Positions 2,626 to 13,262 of a DNA stretch of 42,763 bases are shown here, piece after piece (within the stretch, counting starts at the first letter, position 1; each line of letters begins with the position of its first letter). The stretch is from Embleya hyalina (GTDB lineage: Bacteria; Actinomycetota; Actinomycetes; Streptomycetales; Streptomycetaceae). The notes below the pieces were generated by a model. The model saw only the letters and a list, made by a program, of their open reading frames with translations, ran no database searches and had not been told where the DNA came from. The DNA lies in assembly GCF_003967355.1 (NCBI RefSeq), contig NZ_BIFH01000020.1:338819-381581 (forward strand), written 5' to 3'. Made by a program: the position numbers and the translations under genes.

Positions 2626-5526
2626 CTACGCCGGAACCACGTTCACCAGCTTCGGCGGCTTCACGATCACCATCCGCACGCCCGCCCCGTCCAGCGCCGC
2701 CACGATCGCCGGATCGGCCAGCGCCAGCGCCTTCAGCTCGTCCTCGCCGATCGTCGGCGGCACCTCCAGCCGGGCCCGCACCTTGCCCTTGACCTGCACC
2801 ACGCAGGTGACGGTGTCCTCGACCAGGTAGGCCGGATCCGCCTGCGGGAACGCCTCGTAGGTGACCGTGTCGCCGTGCCCCAGCCGCGACCACAGCTCCT
2901 CGGCCACGTGCGGCACCAGCGGCGCGACCATCAGGACCAGCTTCTCGGCGATCTCGCGCGGCACGGCCGGCAGCTTGACCAGCGCGTTGTTCAGCTCGAT
3001 CGCCTTGGCGATGGCGGTGTTGAAGCGCAGCGCGTCCATGTCCCGCCGCATGCCGTCGATCGCCTTGTGGGTGGCGCGCAGCGTGGCCTCGTCGGCCGGC
3101 TCGTCGACCACGGTCGGCATGCCGGTGTGCTCGTCCACGATGTTGCGCCACAGCCGCTGCAGGAAGCGGTACGAACCGACCACCGCGCGGGTGTCCCACG
3201 GCCGGGAGATCTCCAGCGGGCCCATCGACATCTCGTACAGCCGCAGCGTGTCCGCGCCGTACTCCTCGGCCATCTGGTCGGGAGTCACCGAGTTCTTCAG
3301 CGACTTGCCCATCTTCCCGTACTCGCGGCTGACCGCCTGCTCACCCAGGAAGAAGCCGCCGTCGCGCTCGTCGACCTCGCTCGCCTCGACGTAGACGCCG
3401 CGCTCGTCCTTGTACGCGAACGCCTGGATGTAGCCCTGGTTGAACAGCTTGTGGAACGGCTCGAACGAGGACACGTGGCCCAGGTCGAACAGCACCTTGT
3501 GCCAAAAGCGCGAGTACAGCAGGTGCAGCACCGCGTGCTCGACTCCGCCGACGTACAGGTCCACGCCGCCGGTGTGGCCCTCGTGCCGCGGCCCCATCCA
3601 ATACTTCTCGACCTCGGGGTCGACCAGCACCTCGGAGTTGGTCGGGTCCAGGTAGCGCAGCTCGTACCAGCACGAACCGGCCCAGTTGGGCATGGTGTTG
3701 GTCTCGCGGCGGTAGCTCTTGGGCCCGTCGCCCAGGTCCAGGGTGACGTTCACCCAGTCGGCGTTGCGCGACAGCGGCGTCTCGGGCTTGGTGTCCGCGT
3801 CGTCCGGGTCGAAGGTGCGCGGGCGGTAGTCGTCGATCTCGGGCAGCTCGACCGGCAGCATCGAATCGGGCAGCGCGTGCGCGACGCCGTCCTCGTCGAA
3901 GACGATCGGGAACGGCTCGCCCCAGTAGCGCTGCCGGGAGAACAGCCAGTCGCGCAGCTTGAAGTTGACCGTGCCCTCGCCGATGCCGCGCTCGGTCAGC
4001 CACTCGGTGATCGCCTTCTTGGCGTCGGCCACGCCCAGCCCGTCCAGGGCGATGCCCTCGCCGGTGCTGTTCACCAGCGCCGCGTCGTAGGACACGAACG
4101 CGTCGGCCCAGTCGGTGGTGTCCTCGACCGAGCGGTCGTCGCTCGGCCGGACCACACACCGGATCGGCAGCTCGAAGGCCCGCGCGAACTCGAAGTCGCG
4201 GTGGTCGTGCGCCGGGACCGCCATGATCGCGCCGGTGCCGTAGCCCATCAGCACGTAGTCGGCGATGAAGATCGGCACCCGCTTGCCGTCGACCGGGTTG
4301 GTCGCGTAGGCACCGGTGAACACGCCGGTCTTGTCCTTGCCCTCGCTCTGCCGCTCGACGTCGCTCTTGGACTGGGCGAACCGGCGGTACGCGGCGATCG
4401 CCTCGGCCGGCGTGGCCGCGCCGCCCGTCCAGACCGCCGGGACGCCCTCGGGCCACGCGTCGGCCACGATCGTGTCGACCAGGTCGTGCTCCGGCGCCAG
4501 CACCATGTAGGTGGCGCCGAACAGCGTGTCGGGGCGGGTGGTGAAGACCTCGATCGGCGCGGCGTCGGTGGCGAACGAGACCCGCGCGCCCTCGGATCGA
4601 CCGATCCAGTTGCGCTGCATGATCTTGATCGGCTCGGGCCAGTCCAGCCGGTCCAGGTCGGCCAGCAGCCGGTCGGAGTACGCGGTGATCCGCATCATCC
4701 ACTGCCGCAGATTCGCCTTGAACACGGGGAAGTTGCCGCGCTCGCTGCGACCGTCGGCGGTGACCTCCTCGTTGGCCAGCACGGTGCCCAGGCCCGGGGC
4801 CCAGTTGACCGGGGCCTGCGAGACGTACGCCAGGCGGAACTCGTCCAGCACGGCGGCACGCTCGGTGTCGGTCAGGTCGGCCCACGCGCGCCCGTCCGGG
4901 GTGGGCCGCTCGCCCTTCTCGAACTGCTCGACCAGTTCGGCGATCGGCCGCGCCCGACCGACGCCGCCGTCGGCGCCGGGCGCCTCGGGGTCGTACCAGG
5001 AGTTGAAGATCTGCAGGAAGATCCACTGCGTCCAGCGGTAGTACGCCGGGTCGGTGGTGGCCACCGACCGGCGCTGGTCGTGGCCCAGGCCCAGCCGGCG
5101 CAGCTGGCGGCGCATGTTGGCGATGTTCGCCTCGGTGGTCACGCGCGGGTGGGTGCCGGTCTGGACCGCGTACTGCTCGGCGGGCAGGCCGAAGGCGTCG
5201 TAGCCCAGCGTGTGCAGCACGTTGTGGCCGGTCATGCGCTTGAACCGGGCGTAGACGTCGGTCGCGATGAAGCCCAGCGGGTGTCCGACGTGCAGGCCCA
5301 CACCCGAGGGGTACGGGAACATGTCCATCACCATCATCTTGGGCCGCCCGGCGACCTTCTCCGGCTCGGCCAGCGGGCCGGCCGGGTTCGGCGCCTCGAA
5401 CGTGCCGTCGGCCTCCCAGCGGTCCTGCCACCGCGCCTCGATGTCGCCGGCCAGGACTGCGGTGTAGCGGTAGGGCTCGGTCGGGGCGTCGGTGTTGCCG
5501 GCAGGGCCCTGCGTCATCTCGGTCAT
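2626..5526 (-). CDS. leuS: Leucyl-tRNA synthetase
   Basis: A class I synthetase that charges tRNA-Leu with leucine; cytosolic and essential. The 966-residue product has the HIGH signature as HVGHPLG after PYPSGVG near the N-terminus. It has the large CP1 editing insertion in the middle ([12 protein letters not shown] and the [15 protein letters not shown] segment are editing-site hallmarks). KMSKS appears as KMGKSLKNS, the form I associate with actinobacterial LeuRS, followed by the anticodon-binding domain. Length fits bacterial LeuRS with an actinobacterial N-terminal extension. I chose ATG 5526; ATG 5517 is the alternative, since GAGG sits only 3 nt before 5526 and 12 nt before 5517. Expression is probably controlled by the leader peptide and terminator immediately upstream. 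Confidence 0.97.
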
Positions 5527-5610
5527 CGTCCTCAACCATCGGGGTGTGGGCAGCCGTCGACTGCTTCTCCGGTTACGGCCGCTTCCGCGAAACGGTCGGT
5601 TCTGGAAACG

Positions 5611-5636
5611 AAAAGACCCCTCGCTCAGGAGGGGTC
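5611..5636 (-). terminator. leuS leader attenuator terminator
   Basis: On the minus strand GACCCCTC, loop CTGAGC, GAGGGGTC form a perfect 8-bp stem (5615-5622 with 5629-5636). It is followed directly by TTTT and then CGTTT. It sits between the Leu-rich leader peptide stop and the leuS start, where a transcription attenuator should be. A second dyad just upstream (CGGGTGG/CCACCCG) lies between leader and terminator and could take part in alternative folding. Confidence 0.85.
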
Positions 5637-5677
5637 GCCGCGCCGAGTCGGGTGGGAGTGGTCTCCACCCGGCCTGC

Positions 5678-5713
5678 TCAGCGCGGCCCGGTAAGCAGCA
5701 GTACGGCACGCAT
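5678..5713 (-). CDS. leuL: leuS leader peptide (attenuation)
   Basis: An 11-codon ORF reads [11 protein letters not shown] then stop. Three consecutive Leu codons (CTG CTG CTT) sit at positions 5-7. It is followed within about 40 nt by an intrinsic terminator ahead of leuS. In classical attenuation, ribosome stalling at the Leu codons when charged tRNA-Leu is scarce would favour an antiterminator and let transcription reach leuS. Attenuators have been predicted upstream of leuS in some Streptomyces. The ATG has no Shine-Dalgarno, but TAACCT lies 6 nt upstream, so the leader is probably translated from a leaderless transcript. The peptide itself needs no function. Confidence 0.85.
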
Positions 5714-5719
5714 GGCCCC

Positions 5720-5725
5720 AGGTTA
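5720..5725 (-). promoter_or_regulatory. -10 element of the leuS leader transcript
   Basis: TAACCT on the minus strand, a TAnnnT -10 match, ends exactly 6 nt before the leader peptide ATG. Transcription would begin at or next to that ATG. No convincing -35 box is seen. Confidence 0.55.
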
Positions 5726-5770
5726 CCGCAGGACGCGGTCGGCCCGGGGGCAGCACCCGGGCCGCATCGC

Positions 5771-8867: not shown

Positions 8868-8940
<73 letters not shown>

Positions 8941-13189: not shown

Positions 13190-13262
<73 letters not shown>

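Follow-up and report, generated by a model that had tools for sequence, protein, structure and literature searches.

A leaderless-type leucine leader with abutting hairpins ahead of leuS in Embleya hyalina and its relatives in class Actinomycetes

The leuS leader in the Embleya window

The window, by which we mean the whole 42,763-nt stretch of Embleya hyalina DNA analysed here, carries on its minus strand a gene that scores 886 bits against TIGR00396 (leuS_bact; cut-off 548), which identifies it as leuS, and whose product is 95% identical to the LeuS of Embleya scabrispora, the closest named relative found. Upstream of it lie a putative -10 box, a short open reading frame and two hairpins, here called P1 and T:

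5720..5725, minus strand: -10 hexamer TAACCT, read from the sequence, 6 nt upstream of the leader ATG
5714-5719, minus strand: spacer GGGGCC between TAACCT and the leader ATG
5678..5713, minus strand: leader reading frame ATG CGT GCC GTA CTG CTG CTT ACC GGG CCG CGC TGA; predicted transcription start at 5713
5693..5701, minus strand: putative Leu control codons CTG CTG CTT, the CTT itself at 5693-5695
5677..5687, minus strand: 5' arm of P1, GCCGCGCTGAG, which includes the stop codon of the leader (from fold and comparison)
5649..5671, minus strand: variable apical hairpin CGGGTGG...CCACCCG within the P1 loop (from fold)
5637..5647, minus strand: 3' arm of P1, CTCGGCGCGGC (from fold and comparison)
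5615..5636, minus strand: terminator hairpin T, GACCCCTC-CTGAGC-GAGGGGTC, 8 bp (from sequence, fold and alignment), with its arms read from the sequence at 5629-5636 (GACCCCTC) and 5615-5622 (GAGGGGTC)
5611..5614, minus strand: U tract of T, TTTT, read from the sequence
2626..5526, minus strand: leuS, leucyl-tRNA synthetase, the presumed controlled gene, directly downstream on the same strand with its ATG at 5526

A first-pass annotation of this DNA had placed TAACCT, a gap of 6 nt, a leader with CTG CTG CTT, a dyad and an 8-bp hairpin with TTTT ahead of leuS, and that description is correct to the base. The intermediate dyad that it mentioned is a real element, the 11-bp stem P1, which adjoins T with 0 nt between the two. 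Folding of the leader yields -55.8 kcal/mol (z -2.99), a value that 2 of 200 shuffles reach. A covariance model built from 40 sequences recovers the site genome-wide at E 8e-17, a score that is high by construction as Embleya's own sequence is among the 40; the rest of the genome contributes one further match, a weak one (E 0.09). None of the covariance models of Rfam 15, whether for T-boxes or for any other leader family, matches a leader in the window at its gathering score; the best match within 5450-5760 has an E value of 0.58, far below gathering, and the only matches in the window are two tRNAs. These two tRNA genes, at 8868-8940 and 13190-13262 on the minus strand, have equal model scores and identical printed sequences, with an anticodon that we read as GGC.

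Conservation and spread in class Actinomycetes

We regard the Embleya leader as more than a chance arrangement because every part of it is kept in relatives. The near set comprises 134 leuS upstream regions, the window's own (L001) included, of which 54 come from a set of 61 genomes and 80 from named genomes; seven of the 61 (G052, G053, G055-G058 and G060) were left out since their LeuS matched only in pieces, and at least three genomes are present twice (L003/L031, L010/L035, L011/L063). Strict parsing, which required an in-frame leader ending in CCGCGCTGA, gave 128 loci. A relaxed parse asked for a start codon with its -10 box and for CTT no more than 14 nt from P1; it yielded a leader and P1 in 133 of the 134 regions (L134 has none). 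Further counts below loosen such conditions one after another. P1 has 10 of 10 pairs in 128 of the 133, 9 in three and 7 in two. All 128 strictly parsed leaders have TANNNT ahead of the start, at 6 nt in 122 and at 7 nt in six, with a parser that favours such starts. Among 40 aligned relatives P1 is paired in 99% of cells, with almost no variation in its coding arm. Immediately outside the stop codon, the pair in columns 40/82 has changes on both sides in 14 of the 40 rows and is either gapped or not paired in 11, and the six pairs of the apical helix all have changes on both sides, with 78% of cells paired and gaps in 9-10 of the 40 rows. The outer pair of T is AU in 9 sequences, UA in 9, CG in 1 and GC in 1, and is unpaired in 19. 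Conservation of the Leu codons and of the stem pairing was the check that the first-pass annotation had set for its proposal of a leuS attenuator with Leu control codons; both are conserved, which supports it.

A mini-ORF, ATGGAGCTTCGAGGGACATGA, was seen by eye to overlap the leuS start codon in several loci, for example L008, L012 and L013; it is absent from the Embleya window.

It might be asked whether the leader peptide itself acts, for example by stalling the ribosome or in trans. The near peptides are certainly alike: 118 of the 128 have 12 residues and the other 10 have 11, three Leu are present in 122, and just two peptides, MRAVRLLLSEPR and MRAVRLLLSGPR, together make up 67. However, peptide length, C-terminus and the position of the stop vary widely over the loci while the RNA stem is kept. 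In L123, L126 and L128 an in-frame TAG ahead of P1 shortens the leader to MRAVTLLLM, with the CCGCGCTGA RNA unchanged, and in 96 distant loci (below) the stop codon falls before the ten-base P1 arm in 16, inside it in 65 and after it in 15. Since the three shortened loci retain CCGCGCTGA and the distant stop shifts around the arm, P1 is kept as RNA and not as peptide, and we find an acting peptide scarcely credible.

The covariance model matches 161 of 394 genomes of class Actinomycetes at E <=0.01, the Embleya genome among them, and by our own count from the listing 147 of these 161 at E <=1e-5; the filters of such large searches lose weak matches. From the 161 positive genomes we took a distant set of 100 matches, excluding Streptomycetaceae, several repeats within a genus and most of the weakest. 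LeuS lies downstream on the same strand in 97 of the 100, and judged by kinship labels the matches fall in 23 families beyond those of earlier reports, which together with three families present only in the near set makes at least 26. The 96 loci that were parsed exclude L178 (a contig end), L231 and L232 (another gene downstream) and L218 (5' end cut); the parser took CTT or CTC exactly 5 nt before P1, in-frame starts, and a P1 sought only 0-4 nt before T. P1 has at least 8 contiguous pairs in 86 of the 96, as chosen by a parser that takes the best stem, with CG/UA and GC/AU swaps and with compensated variants such as CCGCACCGG with CCGGTGCGG and CCGCGTCGA with TCGACGCGG. The synthetases beneath the leader are of two kinds: in 34 loci LeuS is 64-84% identical to that of the window and in 63 loci 32-44%, as measured over the best-matching stretch of the available part of each distant protein. 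Two genomes (G281 and G289) have a second LeuS elsewhere, with one leader match each.

Could transcription instead begin upstream, with the short reading frame incidental and the hairpins a constitutive partial terminator? A single in-frame start (<=14 codons) is possible in 70 of the 96 distant loci, and in 70 of those 70 TANNNT lies 6-7 nt upstream; only two other TANNNT occur in the 60 upstream bases of all 70. So sharp a spacing speaks against an upstream start, as does the report, in the part of PMC8079986 available to us, that the S. lividans homologue is leaderless, and the enrichment of CTT and the fixed register described below both point to translation. We judge this explanation very improbable; the leaderless-type start claimed by the first-pass annotation gains support from the position of the -10 box across loci.

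Control codon, register and hairpin junction

CTT serves as the last Leu codon of 126 out of 128 near leaders. It does so in 88 of the 96 distant leaders as well, the remaining eight having CTC in a parse that admitted only these two. Within leuS itself CTT is rare: it accounts for 0.1% of the 6009 Leu codons counted in the window and 80 relatives, and for 0.8% of 1341 in the distant genes. That CTT is kept for base pairing was rejected by reasoning, since CTC would pair better with the GAG of the terminator. Its use is consistent with the idea, put forward in PMC1183508 as far as that paper was available, that control codons are chosen for their sensitivity to charging.

The distance from the start of CTT to P1 is 8 nt in 132 of 133 near leaders, a set selected for CTT within 14 nt of P1. 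For a register test P1 was placed from T alone, with the reading frame taken from the earlier parsers: 120 of the 122 unique near leaders then have P1 at +12 with CTT (119) or CTG (one) in the A site. Among the distant leaders 60 of 92 have it there with CTT or CTC in the A site, 24 more are off by one nucleotide and eight are placed otherwise. In E. coli the mRNA tunnel of the ribosome has its entrance at +12, +11 being the last base inside, and hairpins of dnaX and HIV 11-12 nt downstream slow the binding of A-site tRNA, according to the accessible parts of PMC8861025 and PMC7282821. As +12 is the tunnel entrance, a ribosome waiting at CTT would just touch P1, within the limit that data from E. 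coli ribosomes set on applying this position to the leuS leader.

The junction between the two hairpins is equally tight. With no limit on distance, 120 of the 122 unique near leaders have P1 and T 0-3 nt apart (12 and 28 nt in the other two), and 91 of the 92 distant ones have them 0-2 nt apart (8 nt in the remaining one); four further leaders in which T or P1 was not found fall outside this count.

In the classical attenuation scheme the antiterminator shares bases with the terminator. The leuS leader would then be a four-segment attenuator in which a stalled ribosome permits an antiterminator that takes bases from T, and the Embleya leader does have a run of Leu codons in its reading frame and an intrinsic terminator before the structural gene. 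Two competing pairings can be drawn, one between the Leu-codon region and the 3' arm of T and one between the 3' arm of P1 and the T loop, and PMC1262725, in the part seen, gives the S. coelicolor and S. avermitilis copies both antiterminator and terminator hairpins. But neither pairing does better than its controls. For the Leu codons with the T arm, the leaders' own value over 137 unique leaders is -10.88 against -10.82 when permuted, with 665 of 2000 permutations as stable; against synonymous resampling (-10.5), 46% of resamples are as stable, or 40% when only the Leu codons are resampled. Nor does this pairing exceed a control with swapped partners. The 25 unique leaders in which the T arm is not GAGGGG lean slightly towards this pairing (-11.98 against -11.56), but 265 of 2000 permutations are as stable and the difference is not significant. 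For the P1 arm with the T loop, the own value of -4.77 compares with -5.03 for permuted and -4.82 for swapped loops, and the T loop varies in both sequence and length. The Leu-codon pairing would moreover have the wrong logic, as a stalled ribosome would cover it. The first-pass annotation overstated the matter in calling this a complete attenuation cassette: as an antiterminator competing with T there are two candidates, and neither passes.

Folding of 222 leaders points in the same direction. When a ribosome occupies the first Leu codon, the best fold includes T and giving T up costs 4.5-17.6 kcal/mol (median 13.0), which counts against the classical scheme; without a ribosome the cost is 0-14.4 kcal/mol (median 7.0), and the best T-free folds mostly pair the 3' arm of T with the Leu-codon region. 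We therefore think a classical attenuator unlikely. The same calculations lend no support to P1 stopping T, which is mostly formed wherever the ribosome stands: mean pairing of the 5' arm of T is below 0.5 in five of the 222 leaders without a ribosome, in none when one occupies the first Leu codon and in 11 with a ribosome on P1, so that the small difference runs the opposite way.

Class I pause hairpins act at a spacing near 12-13 nt. P1 could then act as a pause hairpin, detaining RNA polymerase in the T loop long enough for the ribosome to draw level, with termination set by T and by factors such as NusA/NusG. Of 130 unique leaders, 79 do have TGYG in or beside the T loop, and among the 96 distant loci its Y falls 12-13 nt after P1 in 39; in 43 of those 96, however, TGYG is absent from the stretch searched, and the G that the pause consensus has at -10/-11 is absent in the C run. 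Pausing alone would, besides, yield no response to leucine, and we consider this reading quite unlikely.

A possible mechanism and its relation to known systems

Comparison of the sequences establishes, for this leader, a predicted -10 box, a Leu run ending in CTT, a near-fixed distance from CTT to P1, a T that touches P1, and leuS downstream. That the whole is a leucine-responsive attenuator with a leaderless leader is, on the comparative evidence, very probable. As for how it works, the best explanation, to which we give an even chance, is a ribosome-controlled terminator of leuS transcription that responds to leucine and is read from the leaderless leader peptide. RNA polymerase would begin the transcript with the A of the leader's ATG, and a ribosome would initiate on that 5' end. 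Under a shortage of leucyl-tRNA, the ribosome would wait with CTT in its A site, and in this register P1, at +12 and the tunnel entrance, would stay intact; lying back to back with T, it would impede closure of the lower stem of T within the RNA exit channel, the base of P1 occupying the site where the base of T must close, and transcription would proceed into leuS. With ample leucyl-tRNA, the ribosome would pass CTT, unwind P1 three pairs at a time and come to cover its 5' arm on reaching the stop codon, so that T could close and transcription would stop.

The step in which P1 alone hinders T is the weak link of this model, and we give it slightly less than an even chance. Because no competing pairing stands out and P1 adjoins T, we infer that the role of P1 is steric; plugging of the RNA exit channel is known to prevent termination in the case of the phage protein P7 (PMC6624301, as far as its available text goes). 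Other observations count against the model: the register differs from +12 in 32 of the 92 distant leaders; earlier work cited in the part of PMC1262725 at hand found that replacing candidate control codons in the S. coelicolor ilvB leader had no effect; and, according to the portion of PMC8861025 available, ribosomes that unwind three pairs are slowed no more than 2-3 fold, long pauses needing special hairpins.

The layout is seen at other genes too. In upstream regions of ilvB from the Embleya genome and relatives, searched at 0-5 nt, an Ile/Leu/Val leader with a stem that ends 0-2 nt before a terminator was found in 24 of 30, the last control codon lying within two nucleotides of the leuS register; the remaining six have no leader by the pattern used. 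The 24 include Embleya's own ilvB leader (L268), MQTRILVLEKRVN, in which CTT lies 8 nt ahead of a 14-bp stem and 1 nt separates that stem from the terminator. In L231 and L232, whose leaders MPSQVLIIVRRAG and VPSQVIIIARRAG begin at about position 80 of each, an 11-bp stem sits directly on a 10-bp terminator, and the gene downstream in L231 encodes citramalate synthase (TIGR00977, E 4e-80 over the first 210 positions). The trpS leader of the Embleya genome (L273), MHRVSGTSWWRST, has TGG TGG and, 6 nt ahead of its ATG, TATGCT; abutting hairpins of the leuS type are not present there.

It is tempting to generalize, and we do so only tentatively, to an attenuator that has no base-sharing antiterminator, in which a ribosome waiting at CTT would touch the base of P1 at +12 and P1 would sterically block closure of T, with a layout common to leuS, ilvB and at least one cimA leader, the leuS form occurring in at least 26 families and before two very different types of leuS. 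The fixed spacing of codon, hairpin and terminator offers a sharp and cheap test of the way in which a ribosome could switch a terminator where no antiterminator overlaps it.

The leu leader of Salmonella and E. coli, with its four-segment RNA and Shine-Dalgarno start, is unlike the leuS leader. The two are alike in using rare Leu codons as control codons, CUA in that case and not CTT (PMC1183508, in the part available). Closer in some respects is the ilvBNC attenuator of Corynebacterium glutamicum, in which, according to the accessible text of PMC11857589, the 5' end lies one nucleotide from the leader start codon, CUU is among the control codons, and antiterminator and terminator bases stand side by side; its two hairpins overlap by a GCC trinucleotide, whereas no overlap is seen in leuS.

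The nearest precedents are at leuS itself. The first-pass annotation had mentioned leuS attenuators predicted in some Streptomyces, and such predictions exist for S. avermitilis and S. coelicolor (PMC1262725, Fig. 4), likewise with a leader reading frame, two hairpins and leuS. That paper calls them classical, with an antiterminator, whereas here no competing pairing passes its control, and the term 'leaderless' is absent from its main text. The leaderless start, which the first-pass annotation had thought the less expected part, is already on record: upstream of leuS in S. lividans TK24, where 17% of transcripts are leaderless, leuL2 (MRAVRLLLSEPR) is transcribed leaderless and is followed by a hairpin and a U stretch (PMC8079986, Table 4, as seen in part). 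Given these two precedents in Streptomyces, neither the attenuator nor the leaderless start is new. Like leuL2, the Embleya leader has three Leu, a predicted leaderless-type start, a hairpin with a U stretch and leuS downstream on the same strand, and it is a short reading frame of MRAV(R)LLL..PR type with a -10 box in the 6-7 nt range upstream; its peptide differs in having no Arg ahead of the Leu run and a C-terminal TGPR, from which a functional difference is not evident. In the literature as we could search it, with few subscription papers covered, we found no statement that the leuS leader reaches beyond Streptomyces. The Embleya leader is a further copy of a known element, and as a copy it is ordinary; what deserves a second look is how widely the leader is distributed, its CTT codon and its fixed register. 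By our comparison, a leader described in a few Streptomyces is a common means of leuS control in class Actinomycetes.
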